Of a stretch of 64,000 nt of DNA, positions 41,628 to 52,300 are shown one piece after another. Source of the DNA: Epinephelus fuscoguttatus (Eukaryota > Chordata > Actinopteri > Perciformes > Serranidae); assembly GCF_011397635.1 (NCBI RefSeq), contig NC_064767.1, positions 16,531,537 to 16,595,536 of the forward strand. The letters are read 5' to 3'. Below the pieces are notes generated by a model. The model made no database searches. It was given only the letters and a program-made list of their open reading frames with translations, and was not told the DNA's origin. Position numbers and translations under genes: made by a program. The first letter of the stretch is position 1. Each line of letters opens with the position of its first letter.

Positions 41628-42601
41628 TCAGGGCTTGGCTGGTGCTGAGCAGTTGGTAGCTGCCAGCACTGACAGGGGCTCTGAGAGGTCGGAGTCGTGT
41701 CGTCCAAACCACATGACTTGCTCCCCTGCCTGCGCCAAAGCTGCCTCTTCAGACTTCAGCTTGTGGTTGCGGGGGAACCGGAGGAACTGCCTGGTGCTGG
41801 CTGGAACATTAGCAGCCTGTTTCACCGTAAAGTCAGACTGGTGAACCGTGACGTTCCCCCCGGTCTCTTCGGGGCTGCTGTGAGCTCCATCGTGGCACAG
41901 GCAGAAGTGGGAGATGTTCTGCTGTCTGTGATCGAGACACTTCCTGCGGCCCACACCCTGAATACCAACATAGAAGAGATATGTTTTCCTTTCAAGGTGT
42001 AATATTGTGACGGATCTGATCTTTTCATAATGGCCTTCATTTCTTTTTATACTCACATGACTGAAGACAGTGATGTTGTCTTTTAAGGAAAGCTTGTTGT
42101 CATGGTAGGAGAGTGGATACTCTCTGGATATCTGTAAAGAAACTCATGCTGGGATGACACTATAACGTCTGATACAACTGAATACAGTGGAATAGGGTGA
42201 AATGCTTTGATAAGAGGTGCAATAAAATCTTTCAAAGCCCTGGGCCATGGCTATACTTTGAAAAAAAGAACACTCATACCAAACACTATATTATCTACTG
42301 TACATACACACCTGCTGAGTTTTCAATTTAGGATAGCGCTGCAAGTTCAAAGCCTGGGGCAACGATGAGTTAACCTGAGTCAGCATGATCCCAGTGCTTG
42401 TACAGGCCTCACGACTCCTCATCTCGTTTTCAGGTGAAACTGGATGAGCAAACTGAGAAGGAAATGACAGAAAAGCTGATTATCACTCAGGTTCAGATGT
42501 TATGATTCGTAATGAATGAATGATTGTGTGTAAAATGAGGATTTTCTTACCCATTTGCCATCATTGCTCATTGAAGAATATCGCTTTCCACCTTTTACCA
42601 T
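41628..42601 (-). CDS. tex36: Testis-expressed protein 36 homologue
   Basis: Four coding exons on the minus strand: 42601-42551, 42452-42312, 42131-42057 and 41957-41628. All junctions are phase 0 with GT-AG introns; together they encode 198 residues and a stop. The product starts MVKGGKR and continues DGKW|FAHPV, like the start of human TEX36. It keeps the YHDN..SL and GRRK...RQ blocks (exons 3 and 4) and a C-terminal FRRFPR-like FLRFPR motif. Human TEX36 has a similar length (about 186 residues as I recall). Function is unknown; it is a testis-enriched protein in mammals with no enzyme motif, signal peptide or membrane span visible here. The gene lies next to edrf1, as in human, which supports orthology. 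The plus-strand open frame across exon 4 is an antisense shadow. Confidence 0.88.
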
Positions 42602-43540
42602 TTTAATATAGTTTGTGAGAGTAGTTTCACCAGTACAGTACACACACACTGTCAAACTTAGCAACTAATGCAAACACACACTGGTGGCTATGGAAACGTA
42701 CTGCTGCATGCACAAACCTGAAATGTGATCTGGATTTGCCATGGAGATGTGGAACTGGAATTCTGGCAGTAAATATACAAAAAAAAGGCCAGTTTTGTTG
42801 AATATTTAATTACAGCCATGTTAAGTAATTTTATGTAAAATGTGAGATTTTCCTTCCTTATTTTTTTTAAATGTTGAAAAATTATCCAGACAGTCCTTGT
42901 TAAGGAGCTCTGCAGTTCTGCAACTGTGGATTAATTTGCGACAAAACGACATTAAATTGGTGTGTATGAAACTTACAAGAAGGATTTCTCTGATGGACGA
43001 CAAAACAAACAAAATTAGCATATAAGCAACTTTATTTTTGCCAACACTGGATACAGAAAAAAAACCATACATAGCTATACAATATAGTTAATATTATATA
43101 TATTAATGGGAAATGTTAATTATGCAAAAGTAATTTTAAACTATGTTTTTTTAAATAGCCTACACTTTTTGACACAGGAAGTAAAAAATGATTCACGTGA
43201 TTTTCTGTGCAAATAATCTGTTAAAAGTGAAAATAGGTACATAGTCATAAATACCAAGCCCTGACTGTACAGTAGCACCAGCTTTGAATTGTTTACCACC
43301 TTAATGGTACAACTGGAAGCATTATTTTTAATTCTTTAGTGAGGTGTGTTAATCAGGCCAAAGTCCCGACGTGGTAAGTAAACTGGAGTGTAAGTGACAT
43401 TACTTAGGAAAAGGGGGGTTTTAGTGAAAGCAGCAAATGTAAAATTAGTCACTCTGATAAAATCTAAATTTAACAATATATTTAGAAAATATGGGAATAA
43501 TTTTTGTTGGCATTTTTGCCTTTATTAGATAGAAAAATCA
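42602..43540. other. Upstream region of tex36
   Basis: About 0.9 kb before the tex36 start codon. It is A/T-rich, without a CpG cluster or obvious TATA box at a convincing distance. No exon seen. Confidence 0.4.
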
Positions 43541-44137
43541 GTAACGCTTTACTTGAAGGTACCCACATAAGGGTGACATGACACTGTCATAACTAGGACA
43601 TGACACGGTCATGAACCTGTCATTATGTACATGTTATAAATGATTATGACTACTGTCATTAAGTGTCATTTGGTTTTTGTAATGACAAGTTGACATTGTT
43701 TGGGTTGTCTTGATTATGACACCTTGACATTAATTAAAGTGACATTACCAGAAGTTGTCTTTGTCATGACAAGTTGACATTAAATTTGTTTGGGATGTCC
43801 TTATAATGACAACTTGACATTAACCAGGATGACATTACCAGTAGATGTCTTTAAGTCAGTGTCAAGTTGTCATAATAAGAACGTCCCAAACAAATTTAAT
43901 GTCAACTTGTCATGACAAAGACAACTTCTGGTAATATCACTTTGATTAATGTCAATAATCAAGACAACCCAAACAATGTCAACTTGTCATTACAAAAACC
44001 AAATGACACTTAATGACAGCAGTCATAAACGTTGATGACATGTACATAATGTTCATGACGGGTTCATGACCGTGTCATGTCCTAGTTATGACAGTGTCAT
44101 GTCACTCTTATGTAGATACCTTTAAGTAAAGTATTAC
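43541..44137. mobile_element. Near-palindromic fold-back MITE, ~0.6 kb
   Basis: The two halves are reverse complements almost throughout, about 275 bases per arm. The left end GTAACGCTTTACTTGAAGGTA pairs with the reverse complement of the right end, GTAATACTTTACTTAAAGGTA. TGACA/TGTCA words recur many times inside each arm. AAAAATC occurs just outside both ends (43533-43539 and 44140-44146), a possible target duplication. No open frame. It lies between the 3' end of the ATG16-like gene and the tex36 promoter; a transcript through it would form a long hairpin. Confidence 0.85.
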
Positions 44138-44449: not shown

Positions 44450-47400
44450 TTAGACTCCAGCCACAGCTGAGACACAGTAGTGATCTGAGTGTCCCTGGTG
44501 TGGATCTGTTGTATTATTGATCCCTGAGGACGAGATGAGCACGACAAAAAGGTTCAATTACGTGTTTTAGGTTACGCTCAACACACTGCTTTAGAAGCTA
44601 CCATCCAGGGTCCAAACATGTTTATATTCTTTAAAGTAAGGTAACATGTAGGCACGCATAGACACCCAAACCTTGTTCCTTATTTATGTATCTTTTCTTG
44701 AAGCGCTCAAGATGTATAAAAATGGCTGCCTAACATGGTTTTATAGCTGACATCTCGAGTCCACTGAGTTATTTAATGACGGCTAAATGGGCCCTCATCT
44801 GTGCTGTTAGTGCTTTGTTGATCATGATAACATTGTCTTGACCTCATCAACTGGACCCTGTTAATTAAGAGGGTCATAAGGATGCTCTTAATGAAGGCTC
44901 TTGGTGCCTATGACGGTCCGTGTGGTGCAGCACTACAGTGAACTAATGGTATTAAATTAAGAGGCAGCCATTTGTTTGCACCTCCTGCATTATGCATTAA
45001 CATTTTGAAGAGAGTGCTGATTCTTACTCGGAGTGACTGATGTAGGCGTCTCTGTTTCGCTGCTCCAAGAGCTCGTCACTATGGGAACATACTCTTTTCT
45101 CTTCTCCCTATGGAGGTGCTTCTTCAGCTGTTTGGCCAAACGTTGCCACCTGGTGAAAAGCAGTAATCAGACACAACTTGAAATCTGCACAACTGTGGTT
45201 ATGTTATCATTCAAAGTAAAACAGAGATCACACTTACCGTTCCACTACGTCGTTGTGCTTATTTAACCTGTCTGCCTCTTCCCTCTTCTCCGCCATCCAT
45301 CGTTGCATGAGTGCATCTTTCTCTCTACGAGCCTGCGCCAATGCCTCATTTAGTCCTTTCTGCTCAGCACGCAGGACTGCCAACTCTTTGGACTGACACT
45401 CGATGGTGAACTCAAATTCTGAAAGGGTCGCCTTAAGGGTGTTACTCCCTTTAGCCAGAGTGCGAGCCTCTTGACGGTAGTGGGACACACTGAAACAGAC
45501 AAGTCATGAAACAGTGATTTACTGTACCTTAGATTAGCTCGTGGTACTGTTACTTTAAACTTTTAGATGTTGGATTATAGGTCACGAGTTCATCCACTAA
45601 TGGCGAAAAACACAGAGTTGCTAAAGGTGGATTCAAGCTTCCTTATCAAGGTCTTTCAGGGTCAAATACAGTAGCATCTTGGGTGTGTTGCTTGAGTGAT
45701 GTTATTATATGCCCAAAGTAATCACATTAAAGTGGAAATAGGCACATTTTTTGCTTTAACTTATCATTATGAAGTGAATGTTGATCATTCAGTATAATGG
45801 TTACAGAATAGTGACACCACTGGTGTTTAGTTTGGTTCCCTATAAGCCTCGCTTTCACTATGCCATTCTATCCACTTGGTATGATCTCACAGAAAACTGA
45901 AGGTTCAGCTTACGGCACAAAGGAAGCGTGGAACTGTGCAACCAAAAAACAAAGATGATAGTGGTATTGCTTACCCTGGTATCTATCGGTAGCTATCCCT
46001 TGCTATCAGTGTAAGTTCTTAGCAGTTACTATGCCCAGTAGCGTATGGTGGAACAACCCGACTAACTTTGGAAACTCTAGCCGGCAAAAGATAAAGAGCC
46101 TTGTTGCTAGGCTTTGAGAAAAATGGAAAGTGATCACAAAAGTGATCACAAAATAAGCTGAAAAATCAGGTGGATGTACTGTAAGGGACTGTATGCAAAT
46201 TATAGAGTTGAGTTGCTGAATCTGATATGTTATCCTATTAAAAGTCCAGTTTGTAGGATTTATAGGCATCAATAGTGAGGTTGCAGAGCTGAAACTTCTC
46301 CTGTGTGCCAAAAGTGAAGGAGACATACGGTGACTGACATGGAAAACTCAAATTGGCTTATCTAGAGCCAGTGTTTGGTTTGTCCGTTCAAGGCTACTGT
46401 AGAAACAACATGGTGGACTCTGTGGAAGAGGACCCACTCTGTTTGATATAAATGACTAATTAAAGGTAATGAAAACTCAATTATTATTATTTCTGTGTGA
46501 TCTTAAACAACTGAAAACATAGTTATGAATGTTATATTCCATTTCCACCAATAAATGCCCCTAAATCCTACACACTGGACCTTTAAAAAAGCCAGGCCTT
46601 CCCTTGTGTTATTAATATCTCCTTTGTACCCACCCCCTGACTTCAGAAACAACTGCAATACCCTCCCCATAATATCTTAAGACTGTATATTTATGGCAAA
46701 CTTAATAAAATATTACAACACAAGAATCTTGCTGCTCCCTATGTTTGAGAAAATAATAAATAAATAATAAAAATGATTTTCATACAGTGCCTAAAGGTGT
46801 CCAATGCTTATCTGTCTCTTCAGATTGATAAAGAAGGGAGCATACTGATAGCTTTAGTTGTCCACTGACAGTGATGCTCTGAAAACTTGAAATTACCGTG
46901 ACTGCCAGTACTGCAGTTCAGCCTCTTTCAGATACAGGACAGCGGTCAGGTCGGAGACAGTCTGAGACAGCTGGGGGGACAAAGGATGAAAAAATGTAGG
47001 CCTATGCTAATAATAATTTCACAAGGTTAAAGCCACTTAAAGCCATGTATTAATGTATTTCTGATTATGTCTCATCTTTATAATAAATATTTGTGCAAAC
47101 AGTTGCTGCTTATACAGTGGAATAATGTCTGAAACATGTCCATAATTGGATTTCTCCACATTTAACCAACACACCTTTTCTGCCAGGTGTTCACTCTCTC
47201 TCAGTTGGAGTTGAAGGAGTCTCGTGTCTTTCCCAACTTGAACTCCACCTTGCTCCGAACTGGAAATAAAAAACAGTGTTTAAAGATCAGATTTATAATA
47301 AAACAGAATCAAGCTTTGTGCATTAGATCATCAGACAGGCCAAATATGACTCTACATTTCTCACCTCTTAAACTGATCATCCAGAATTTGCTTGCGAATT

Positions 47401-47599
47401 TCAAACCGTTCCTCCAGCTGAGACACTGAAAGAAAACAAACACATGTCCTCAGGCTAAAACAGTGAGAGCTTCATCACTGCAAAGGCTGAGAGAGGAAAT
47501 ATTCATCTTACAGCTTGTAAAGACGCCAGCATACGGCAGTTTCTCTGTTTGGTCTCTGTGTTGCAGCCGAGCGCGCACGTGATTCTTCCAGCTTTGCAT
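44450..47599 (-). CDS. Short ATG16-like coiled-coil protein without WD40 repeats
   Basis: Seven coding exons on the minus strand: 47599-47512, 47425-47365, 47259-47175, 46970-46897, 45489-45238, 45149-45028 and 44523-44450. All introns are GT-AG with matching phases, giving 251 residues. The N-terminus MQSWKNHVRARLQHRD matches the W-K-x-H...L..RD pattern of the ATG5-binding helix of ATG16L1. Residues from about 60 to 205 are rich in heptad-type leucines and charged residues (coiled coil). Near residue 175 is RWMAEKREEADRLN, almost identical to RWMAEKAQEANRLN of vertebrate ATG16L1. ATG16 proteins scaffold the ATG12-ATG5 complex for LC3/Atg8 lipidation. Unlike ATG16L1/L2 there is no WD40 domain: the frame stops after a short Ser/Thr-rich tail, and I see no WD40 exon before tex36. 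The last exon (44523-44450) is the least certain. Divergent from edrf1. Confidence 0.78.
46238..46586. repeat. Dispersed repeat Q, copy 2, in an intron of the ATG16-like gene
   Basis: Inverted ends: left TTAAAAGTCCAGTTTGTAGG and right 'CCTACACACTGGACCTTTAA', with TTAA at both termini. Better preserved than copy 1 at 33500-33851. Sits in the 1.4 kb intron between coding exons 4 and 5 of the ATG16-like gene. Confidence 0.75.
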
Positions 47600-48393
47600 T
47601 GCAATAAAAACGAATTTTTCACACGGTACCCAAAAATGTCCTGCAGCGGTGGGTTTGATGCGTCTTTTCCTCCGCTCCCACTTGATTTTGGTCGAAGGCG
47701 AAATTATTGTTAAAAGGGAGAGTTGTTAAAAGGTCCCGTCAGCAGGAATGAACTGCCTGAAGCAAAGTTTCACAGCTCCTCCCTGTTCAGTCAGTCAGCT
47801 GCTTTACATTCCCCAGCATTATATAACTTCTGACCATGATTATATATAATATAATATAATATACGGTAATTTTATACCTCAACTTTGGTTTGTTACTATC
47901 AAAGGGAAATATTTTGTAAGCTACTTTTACTACACTGACAAGCTACTACTAGCCTAACTTTATATCTTAAGATTTTATTAAATCTATATTATATTATTTT
48001 TATGTACACAGAACATACAAACAAAACTTTCAAACGAAAAACTATCTGCCACCTACTATTCGTAAGTGTTATTCTTTACTTTATGCTGCTAATATTTCCC
48101 AAGACAGCATGTTTTATGTCAAACTTAACTTAAAGACTATTTGTACATTTACATATAGCTATTTCTACATAAATAAAAGACTCACCACTGAATGCAATGT
48201 AATATAATATGATATCAAATATTATAACAAAATAGAACCATTGTGTAATATAAAGATAAACCACAGGGCATTAAAGTAATTAAATTAAAGCTGTAGGTTG
48301 GCACGACTAACTTTGTTAATTAAACTAAATTAAATTAAATTACATTAAATTCAAATCAATTTAATTTAATTCGATTTCATTTCATTTCATTCA

Positions 48394-48427
48394 ATCTAAT
48401 CTAATCTAATCTAATCTAATCTAATTT
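48394..48427. repeat. Pentanucleotide tandem repeat (AATCT)n
   Basis: Six or so uninterrupted AATCT units, flanked on both sides by related degenerate pentamers (AATTA, TTTAA, TTTCA). Simple-sequence tract. Confidence 0.85.
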
Positions 48428-48758
48428 AATATAGTTTAATTTAATTTGATTTAATTTAACTTCATTTAATATTTAATACCAATTTTTTTTTACAAATTAA
48501 AAAGCTTTGTAAAATAGTTTTGTAATAATGATTAAGAATTATGAATTAAAAAAAAAAATTCGATTTTTGTTAAGCCTACCTTTTGGCTGCAAAATATGAA
48601 ATATTAATATAAACATAACATTTAATTAAATGGTTAAAAACTAGAAAAACTAGTCGACATACTTTAAAACATGTGATTGAATTTCAAAATAAAATACAAC
48701 GGGACAGAACAGAACGTGCTCAACTTTTCTACAACGAGGCTCTGGCACATCTTAAAGT

Positions 48759-48936
48759 ACTTCCGGTTCATATATTTTTCTAAATAAATCGCAAAAACTG
48801 AAATATATTCTTATACATATGCTAATATTATGCGTTACAATGTGTTAATTTTTTACTAAAATTCTGAGTTATTCTTATGGTCGAATTAAGACATAAAAAT
48901 GAATTTTGTAGTTTTTCTTACCGTTAAACCGGAAGT
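48759..48936. promoter_or_regulatory. Pair of facing ETS-type motifs
   Basis: ACTTCCGG at 48759-48766 and CCGGAAGT at 48929-48936 are exact reverse complements spaced 162 bases apart, upstream of the edrf1 start codon. ETS-family factors such as GABP bind this core in many housekeeping promoters. Functional use here is inferred. Confidence 0.4.
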
Positions 48937-49334
48937 TATTACTGCTCGCACTAACGTGTGCTCTGACAACAACAGACTGGCAGGCTGGTGATAGGAAGAG
49001 AAGCTGCAGGCATATTTAACAAGTCATGTAAGGGCTAGAAACAAAACAACAACAGCCCGTCATGTGAGCGTCGTCTAGCTTTAAATTAAATACCGTGTTG
49101 TATGACTACACTTCTTTTTTTTTTTTTTTACATTTCTAGGAGTCAGCGTTGTTCTTTAAAAGGAGCTAGCCTGTCAAGCTAGTAAACTCGAGACAACTTT
49201 ATTGACATAAGTGACGCGTCTCGCTGGTTATCTAGCTAATGTATAGGTTGTCTGTGATTCGTCGAAGACATGGATAGGTTGTCTAATTGTTAAAAAATTG
49301 CCAGTTTGGTGTGTTGAACGGTCGCGTGTCCAGT

Positions 49335-52300
49335 ATGAGCGCATCAGCTGGGGACAGAGAGCCTGCTGGGAGCCCTCTGGATAATGCAAAGGAGGAAATC
49401 ATTGGCCCTACCTGTTCAGGAGAGAACAGCAAACATGTAAGTAACCAGAAAGGTTTATGTAGATGAAGGACCTCGATCTAAATCCAACGCCTACCTCTGT
49501 CAGTGATCCCTGGTCATGGTAACTTCCTTACAACATGATGTCTTACCTTGTTATCTTGAAGGACTCCGCAGTGTGCACAGGAAACAGTGAAATAAAGAGC
49601 CGGGCCGTGGTGAAGTACTCTGCTGCCCCACCTCCCACCAGTTATGCTCTGCTGCAGGAACAGACAGACCTGAAGCTGCCTCCTGCCAACTGGCTGAGAG
49701 AAAACCCCCAGCTGGGCAGCGCTGGCACCACTATATTAGGGTCCAGCAGCAAGAGCAAGCCTTTCTCCAGGTACATCATCATGAGAAATACTATTACTAT
49801 AATTGATCTTTATCAATTTATTGTGGAACTGTACTGGTTTCTGTAGAGATGTTTAGTTTTTGCTTAATAAAGGGAGTACGCTGTCTGAGTGTACTTTCCA
49901 TAGTGGTGAGACAAAACACAACACTGAAAGGAGTCCATAAGACCTCACATCACACACTAAGTGCTGCATTCACCAGTCTACAGACACGTTCTAGTGCAGT
50001 GGTTCCCAACTGGTGGTCGCAGGGTCATTCAGAGTGGACCGCAAGTGACTCTCGAACATGTCAGATTTGAAATACAGTGAATTTCCAGCACAGAGCTTTT
50101 ATTTTGAAGTGCCATTTCCTGCTGTAGAGTGAGTGACTAATGGATAGCTACTTGACAGAGACAGCAAACTAGCTTGACGACATGGCCATACTTAGTATGA
50201 CATAGTAAGGGTTTAATACATTAAACTGTGTGGACCTTGAACTAATGACTAAGGAGAAATCTAGACCCTGTGACCGGACCAGTTGGGAACCACTGCGCTA
50301 GTGTGTACAGTTGTGTTTTGTGGGATTCTTGTAGGCTTTCATTGCACTCATATTTTACGTTTTTTTTTCCTCAGGATGCTCTATTTTTTCTCAAACACCC
50401 TGCACCATTGCAGTACAAAATATACTTTTCACATGATAGTCTATAGGTAACAAAAAAACACAAACAGTAAACAACAAAACTGAAAGCTAATACAGCAGTA
50501 CAGCATGTCCCCTTTCTAAGGCCCTCTGTTAAATCTGGTATCTAATGATCCCAACTGGTAATAAATCTGAGGATGCTACCCCCTACTTCAGTCAGTCAAG
50601 ACTCTTAATTCTTTCAGTTTGGCTACTATGAATAGTCATGAGCTCAATTAAGTCTTTCAAAAAGGTGTGCTTGTATTTTCCAGTTCCTTAATATAATATG
50701 TGCTGCATTAAGGAAGCCTGCATTAGCTAACCTAAACAATGCCTTTGTAAATCCAGATTGTAGACCATATATGTCTCCAGGAAGGCAAAAAAGTGGTGTG
50801 CTTGGCAAGGGCTGATCCAACTACTCCTCAGTAGCCTGAACCACTTGTGTCCAAAATGGGAAAACCCAGCGGACAGTCCTGCCTGAGGTGGAAAAAAGTA
50901 CCCACATGACTCTTACATTTCTTCCTTAGACACATTTTGTGTTTCTGCCTCCCTCTTACATTTTAAAGTTGATGTTGGATACATCCAGCTAAAACTAATG
51001 CAGTCTAATACAACAGCCATGCAGCAAATATGATGGCTGAAATGTTAAGTTATTGTTGAAACTGTTTTAGTTGAGGGTATTCATTCAGAAGTTGGATTTA
51101 AACTCATGGCTATTTTGGAGTTTTTAGATTGTTATGCTGTTGCATTGTATTGTGTCACAATATTTAAAATAGAATTATATAAAATACAGTGTAGACACCA
51201 TAAATGAGAAGCAGTGGACAACTTGTCAGTGGGTAAATCATGGATACTGAGTCACCGGTAAATGCCTTAAATCATTAAGCATCCTCACCCTGATCCATGT
51301 CACCATCAGCAGACACTCTGTAGTGATTAAGCTCCTTTTCTTCTTTTGTAGTTTTGGGATGGCGTATGAATTCATCGATTGTATCGGGGATGATGTCGAC
51401 GTAGTGTCAGACTCAGAGGTTTGTGGAGCTGTTCTAAACATTTCTGTCTTGGTTTTTCAAACACGCACCTGACCTCATTTTTTTCTGTCGCGTTCAGAAC
51501 ATCAAGAAGCTTCTGAAAATTCCCTACAGCAAGTCCCACGTCAGTATGGCCGTTCACCGCGTGGGGAGGACGCTGCTTTTGGATGAGCTGGACATTCAAG
51601 AGCTCTTCATGAGATCCTCTCAGGTACAGGAGGGCTCATTCGAGACTTTAAGTATAGTCCCTATGATAGTATGTTTTGTGTATGTGCTTTAAATCATTGT
51701 GTTCTCCCTGCTATGTGTGTGTTGTAGACAGGAGATTGGACATGGCTAAAAGATTTCTACCAGCGGCTAATAGATCAGAAGTGGCAGAGGAAAAAGAAGA
51801 GTAAAGAGCACTGGTATCAGAGAGCAATCCTGTCAAAGTTCCTCTACTATAGGTGAGCACTTGGGAGTCATGGGAGTTATGTTACACTTCATCTTAAGGT
51901 GCATGTTTCCCAGTCTTTATCCAACAACAACTGCTGTGTTTCCTCCAGTATAAATGGTAATGGGGCTGCAGAGCCTGTTCCAGACAACCCGGATGAAGGA
52001 GAGGAGGAAAATGAGACAGACGAGTTCAGTTCTTCGTGGCTCACCAGCACAGCATCTGATACAGAAGAATCAGACACTCCCAAACAGGTACAGTATCTTA
52101 GCTGTTGGACAGGTATTTAGCAGTCTCCAATCAGGCAGTGTTACTTCAGGAATTAAATTAATTTCTTCTTGATTAGGAATCAGTGTGCAGTAGCCATTCA
52201 TGACTTTCAGGATTTAGTGAGATTAAATGTGTTAGAAAATATAGTTTTTTGATTAGACTGGCCCTTGGTTGGCTGCCAAACTTATGTGAGTGAAGGTTTT

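Follow-up and report, generated by a model that had tools for sequence, protein, structure and literature searches.

The window analysed, 64,000 nucleotides of Epinephelus fuscoguttatus DNA, contains a compact gene of the ATG16 family, a family that aids autophagosome building in cells. The gene lies on the minus strand, where seven exons running from 47599 to 44450 are joined in phase by splicing to give a coding sequence of 756 bases (251 amino acids and a stop). All six introns are GT-AG, and the original prediction of seven phase-consistent exons encoding about 251 residues was thereby confirmed. The coordinates of the gene and its parts are given in Table 1. The last coding exon (23-24 residues) was placed by consensus splice sites only and has no counterpart in atg16l1 or atg16l2; retention of intron 6 would stop the frame after 239 amino acids. 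In addition to the AATAAA listed in Table 1, an ATTAAA is found 3′ of the stop codon, at 43900.

Table 1. Features of the ATG16-like gene, in window coordinates
Feature	Position	Strand	Basis
ATG16-like gene, seven-exon coding sequence, 251 aa, without WD40	44450..47599	-	spliced model; Pfam PF08614; PDB ATG16-1 chains
Exon 1, 88 bases, end phase 1; counterpart is the first coding exon of atg16l1	47512..47599	-	
Exon 2, 61 bases, end phase 2	47365..47425	-	spliced model, atg16l1 comparison
Exon 3, 85 bases, end phase 0	47175..47259	-	spliced model, atg16l1 comparison
Exon 4, 74 bases, end phase 2; equal length in atg16l1 and atg16l2	46897..46970	-	
Exon 5, 252 bases, end phase 2, coiled coil	45238..45489	-	spliced model, alignment
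Exon 6, 122 bases, end phase 1; carries KEYVPI	45028..45149	-	spliced model, MAFFT alignment
Exon 7, 74 bases including stop; least certain exon	44450..44523	-	spliced model
Predicted ATG5-binding motif W4-V8-L12-R15-E19 (human W13, I17, L21, R24, Q28)	47543..47590	-	alignment; PMC6769624 (available text)
Predicted Rab33-binding segment R166-N182, RWMAEKREEADRLNKHN	45252..45302	-	alignment, PDB match; PMC7395093, PMC8496732 (available text)
Candidate poly(A) signal, nearest AATAAA 3′ of the stop	43521..43526	-	

The gene sits between tex36 and edrf1, as had been proposed. On one side an HDNR domain (PF15115) is matched at 41631-42143 with an E-value of 2.4e-12, on the same minus strand. We take TEX36 to be the HDNR protein; its PF15115 match is the only one in the genome, all three candidates having been scored. 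On the other side EDRF1 domains were recognised in four of the six plus-strand frames tried, between 54337 and 59641. The edrf1 start codon is located at 49335 on the plus strand, so that edrf1 and the ATG16-like gene are arranged head to head with their start codons 1.7 kb apart (47599-49335). Between the ATG16-like gene and tex36 (43541-44137) lies a nested palindrome about 600 bases long, similar to a foldback transposon. Its three main arm pairs are 92-95% complementary, and it would fall in the 3′ UTR of the ATG16-like gene if the AATAAA at 43526 were used.

The spliced protein matches the Pfam ATG16 family (PF08614) with an E-value of 5e-9 and a score of 37.1 bits, above the family's cut-off of 33.7; residues 8-179 align with positions 2-200 of the 200-position profile. 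Among the 12 Pfam families matched at E up to 10, ATG16 alone passes its cut-off, the remaining matches being mostly weak coiled-coil ones. Its closest PDB entries carry the chain name Autophagy-related protein 16-1; the top match has an E-value of 3.2e-6, with 17.5 bits of composition bias. With PF08614 over its cut-off and both known paralogues located elsewhere in the genome, the assignment as a third ATG16-family gene, separate from atg16l1 and atg16l2, stands.

Similarity exon by exon is weak, and the case stands on the whole spliced protein together with the gene structure. When the genome (1.05 Gb, 26 contigs) was searched with the window protein, a retrocopy of atg16l1 was found at E 0.0024 and an exon of the atg16l1 gene itself at just E 0.74; atg16l1 in turn matched exon 5 of the window gene at E 0.039, with 28% identity. 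Two other weak matches, at C5:9809715 (E 0.033) and C21:16132080 (E 0.2, four stops), are regarded as chance. Scanning the whole genome in six frames with PF08614, a model that also gave below-cut-off matches in 6 of 14 prokaryote controls, listed four matches, all on contig C5 and none in the window. No relative of the ATG16-like protein was found in the prokaryote contigs searched.

Exons 4 and 5 can be aligned to atg16l1 without gaps over a block of 108 residues, with a score of 129. Shuffling this block 5,000 times gave -55.5 ± 20.3 and never reached 129, and registers shifted by 3, 4, 7 and 14 either way (n = 8) scored 4 or less. Against atg16l2 the same block scored 42 in register, and none of the shifted registers (3, 4, 7, 14) was positive. 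The fractions of hydrophobic a/d heptad positions are 0.75/0.83 in the window protein (12 heptads) vs 0.83/0.75 in this genome's ATG16L1. The exon phases, the exon lengths and the shifted-register controls rule out a generic coiled coil that resembles ATG16 by chance. The description of the protein as nearly identical to ATG16L1 holds for the RWMAEK..EA.RLN segment but not overall, since only 38 of 143 gap-free columns are identical.

Both paralogues were located on C5: atg16l1 at 181943-172410 (the part compared) and atg16l2 from 924637 upward, each followed by its WD40 exons. The exon-end phases are 1,2,0,2,2,1 in the window gene, 1,2,0,2,0,2 in atg16l1 and 1,2,0,2,2 in atg16l2. All three genes have a fourth coding exon of 74 bases. 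Next comes a 252-base exon in both the window gene and atg16l2, whereas atg16l1 has two exons of 70 + 182 = 252 bases in its place; the equality is partly guided with atg16l2 and less so with atg16l1. The atg16l1 junctions are backed by the retrocopy, except for the end of the last exon compared, which was set at a non-GT place. For atg16l2, exons B and C were chosen among 27 and 29 candidates, exon C having two possible starts, and the acceptor AG of the 252-base exon was selected to suit phase and alignment. The gene structure held in common (phases, 74- and 252-base exons) marks the window gene as a duplicate made at the DNA level and not as a retrocopy. The unsplit 252-base exon may tie the window gene to atg16l2, or else may be the ancestral state. 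The processed atg16l1 retrocopy lies at C5:10903000-10912000 (10.905 Mb), and its DNA is 92-99% identical to the parent exons. Within a 124-residue stretch of its N-terminal half it carries one TGA and one TAG; its C-terminal part has a stop-to-stop frame of 324 residues.

Base shuffling of the coding sequence of the ATG16-like gene yielded no stop-free sequence in 20,000 trials (mean 12.4 stops), and G+C is 0.505 in the exons vs 0.378 in the introns. Identity between the window gene and atg16l1 at codon positions 1, 2 and 3 is 0.48, 0.54 and 0.37 (324 gap-free bases), a pattern typical of coding DNA but weak support because the atg16l1-atg16l2 pair itself gives 0.40, 0.54 and 0.45. Compared with the atg16l1 retrocopy, the ATG16-like gene has diverged much further, yet it is lesion-free whereas the retrocopy has two stops. 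The intact frame and the common exon layout suggest that the ATG16-like gene is real and old.

A product ending without any WD40 domain had been predicted, and no such domain was detected. Nineteen WD40 pieces, made up of nine pairs from atg16l1 and atg16l2 (one an out-of-frame reading) and one piece from the retrocopy, detected no counterpart in the window (lowest E 0.028) in a search that would overlook a WD40 domain far more divergent than the two paralogues' pieces. A WD40 signature pattern is absent from all 1687 frames scanned. As a control, the better atg16l1 and atg16l2 WD40 pieces match each other at 2e-13 to 1.5e-10.

Divergence was counted over 143 gap-free columns of the window protein, this genome's ATG16L1 and ATG16L2, and human ATG16L1. 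The window protein is identical to this genome's ATG16L1 at 38 columns, to human ATG16L1 at 39 and to ATG16L2 at 27; the two ATG16L1 proteins share 113. ATG16L2 matches this genome's and human ATG16L1 at 46 and 44 columns, so the window protein is somewhat farther from ATG16L1 than ATG16L2 is. The origin of ATG16L2 is placed near the vertebrate root in the available text of a chordate survey (PMC13020874). That the window protein is equally distant from this genome's and from human ATG16L1 makes an old split from ATG16L1 likely, but not proven. A fish-only duplicate of atg16l1 is not favoured: fish and human ATG16L1 differ at 30 columns, and of these the window protein agrees with fish in two and with human in three, a comparison of low power. 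It keeps 20 of the 42 columns at which both ATG16L1 proteins and ATG16L2 agree and has therefore changed fast; the gene may be a fast-evolving younger copy.

We asked which functional residues are kept. Human residue numbers were assigned by counting residues of the PDB-matched ATG16L1 chain; the letters used agreed, the sole clash being T39 of PMC6769624, which is Y in the chain. The ATG5-interacting motif comprises W13, I17, L21, R24 and Q28, as given in the text available for PMC6769624. Three of these five are identical in the window protein (W4, L12, R15), the change of I17 to V8 is conservative, and Q28 is replaced by E19. Every residue singled out at the N-terminus by the original prediction (W4, K5, H7, R15-D16) was found. 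The helix-2 residues F32, I35, I36 and L43 correspond to Y23, V26, F27 and E34.

The RAB33B site of ATG16L1 is formed by V191, R193, W194, E197, K198, E201, A202, N206 and N209, according to the accessible portions of two reports (PMC7395093, PMC8496732). The same portions ascribe helix spreading to E197 and E201 and report that K198A, A202W and N206K abolish RAB33B binding, while N206A weakens it 36-fold and N209A 9-fold (PMC7395093, PMC8496732). Eight of the nine residues are identical in the window protein (R166, W167, E170, K171, E174, A175, N179 and N182). The lone change, V191 to M164, is located just upstream of the predicted segment in Table 1. This genome's ATG16L2 has kept K198, A202, N206 and N209 but has lost R193, W194, E197 and E201.

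The WIPI2 site (E208, D212, E226, E230) and the FIP200 patch (E235-E241), as defined in the accessible part of PMC4104028, are a different matter. E208 and D212 are H181 and V185 in the window protein. E226 and E230 face L199 and K203 in the gap-free alignment, or E202 and E206 given the three residues (2+1) inserted by MAFFT, which also sets KEYVPI of exon 6 against KEPLPI/V, where the WIPI2 site of ATG16L1 ends. This stretch of the window protein is mostly basic, and the presence of a WIPI2 site appears doubtful. The FIP200 acidic patch is lost; by eye, the alignment places VTSSWSS past the P-I anchor. The D164-E165 pair of ATG16L1 corresponds to K137-E138, and the lipid-related I171 and K179 are both replaced by alanine (A144 and A152).

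Vertebrate ATG16L1 resembles the window protein in its ATG5-binding helix, its coiled coil, its Rab33B-binding end (here predicted) and its exon phases and lengths. It differs in having the WD40 domain and the FIP200 acidic patch, in its sequence and in a split counterpart of exon 5. ATG16L2 has the unsplit 252-base exon and an ATG5-type N-terminus in common with the window gene; it differs in its WD40 domain, in the loss of RWMAEK from this genome's copy and in its still lower identity (27 of 143). Yeast Atg16 is likewise compact, with an ATG5-binding part, a coiled coil and no WD40. The PDB chain 6rgo (Autophagy protein 16), which we take to be from yeast, matches exon 5 over 45 residues at E 0.0011; the equivalent atg16l1 match has E 0.0034. 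The yeast protein belongs to a separate lineage, however, and binds Atg21 through D101/E102, the equivalents of human D164/E165 in the available text of PMC10688262; these positions are K137/E138 here.

In our working interpretation, to which we give a little less than an even chance, the window holds a functional third member of the ATG16 family, which arose by an old DNA-level duplication within the atg16l1/atg16l2 family and whose product has a predicted ATG5-binding helix and coiled coil only. Judging from the residues kept, the N-terminal helix would hold the ATG12-ATG5 conjugate. The coiled coil would form a parallel dimer with itself, perhaps also with ATG16L1, and its diverging RWMAEK..EA.RLN end would dock on Rab33. 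LC3/GABARAP lipidation would thereby be steered to Rab33-bearing membranes (Golgi-derived or phagophore). Lipidation of the LC3-associated phagocytosis (LAP) type would not be expected, as the WD40 domain needed for LAP is missing, as is the FIP200 patch. Expression of the gene, binding of ATG5 and Rab33 and lipidation activity are what we infer for it. A broader proposal is that this is a third vertebrate ATG16 that split from ATG16L1 and ATG16L2 before the fish-tetrapod divergence and serves in at least some fishes as a WD40-less, Rab33-directed scaffold for LC3 lipidation, and that it is absent in human; we consider this possible but lean against it.

The closest engineered parallel is the mouse atg16l1-E230 allele, in which stop codons just after E230 leave a protein of about 27 kDa that has the ATG5-binding and coiled-coil parts without the linker and WD40. 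In the accessible text these mice keep autophagy and lose LC3-associated phagocytosis, and mice that also lose E230 are defective in autophagy (PMC6526875). The allele is man-made and retains the WIPI2 glutamates, whereas the window gene exists naturally, apart from atg16l1, and its WIPI2 site is doubtful. The defect of the E230-lacking mice thus indicates that a missing WIPI2 site could leave the window protein inactive in starvation autophagy.

The original prediction had also allowed for a regulator or competitor of ATG16L1. Here the protein would bind ATG12-ATG5, perhaps mix into ATG16L1 dimers and, being ill-recruited, keep the conjugate from ATG16L1. We judge such a brake less likely than not, though it is the main rival of the scaffold. 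The WD40 domain and the FIP200 acidic patch are absent, E208 and D212 are changed within a mostly basic WIPI2 stretch, and there is a precedent in mammalian ATG16L2, which binds ATG12-ATG5 but not WIPI2b and fails to sustain canonical autophagy in the parts available of PMC6769624 and PMC4104028. The retention of eight of nine Rab33-site residues, however, preserves a recruitment route, at a site where this genome's ATG16L2 has lost four residues, and KE..P does meet the end of the WIPI2 site when gaps are allowed. With the ATG5 and Rab33 residues kept, a scaffold fits somewhat better than a competitor or regulator; given the loss of the FIP200 patch and the doubt over the WIPI2 site, a competitor is still to be reckoned with.

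It is improbable that the gene is narrowly expressed (for example in germ line or brain) and acts in Rab33-linked secretion or trafficking instead of autophagy. Narrow expression would agree with the name of the neighbouring tex36, presumably given to a testis-expressed gene. Rab33 genes function in zebrafish forebrain axon outgrowth, and an autophagy-independent action of ATG16L1 in hormone secretion comes from a report cited in the same source, of which part was available (PMC6372587). An ATG5-binding helix would be superfluous in a pure trafficking adaptor, yet the helix too is largely conserved. Still less probable is a decaying or dead gene (a unitary pseudogene) in Epinephelus fuscoguttatus. 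Strong divergence from this genome's ATG16L1 and the retention of fewer than half of the agreed columns are what such a gene might show, but there are no stops or frameshifts, six introns are intact in spite of the divergence, and the Rab33-site residues are retained far above background. We can exclude with near certainty that the window gene is a retrocopy, or that part of atg16l1 or atg16l2 was misassembled or misplaced here: a genuine atg16l1 retrocopy does exist in this genome, but the window gene has introns and is 27% identical, and both parents occupy their own C5 sites (181943 downward, 924637 upward) with WD40 exons.

A 2026 survey of 30 chordate species handles ATG16, in its available text, as one pair, ATG16L1/ATG16L2; some short sequences were removed, so a gene like the present one could be hidden there (PMC13020874). 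No mention of an 'ATG16L3' and no report of such a fish gene was found in the literature searched, which mostly excluded subscription journals; fish annotation databases may already carry an automatic name for the gene. If the assignment is true, a third and naturally WD40-less member would change the ATG16 count of that survey (PMC13020874), would show that nature too has produced the domain split made by engineering in mice, and would offer a handle to tell Rab33-directed from WD40-dependent LC3 lipidation in fish. Under the broader proposal above, canonical autophagy and WD40-dependent lipidation of single membranes would have been separated naturally.

We note two features of the known paralogues in this genome. 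atg16l1 and atg16l2 lie on one contig (C5, at about 0.17 and 0.93 Mb), about 0.74 Mb apart; human ATG16L1 and ATG16L2 are on different chromosomes. A 105-base atg16l1 exon occurs twice, at C5:162501-162605 and C5:164828-164932, with flanks identical over the 30 bases compared on each side, and may reflect a recent duplication, an alternative exon or an assembly artefact.
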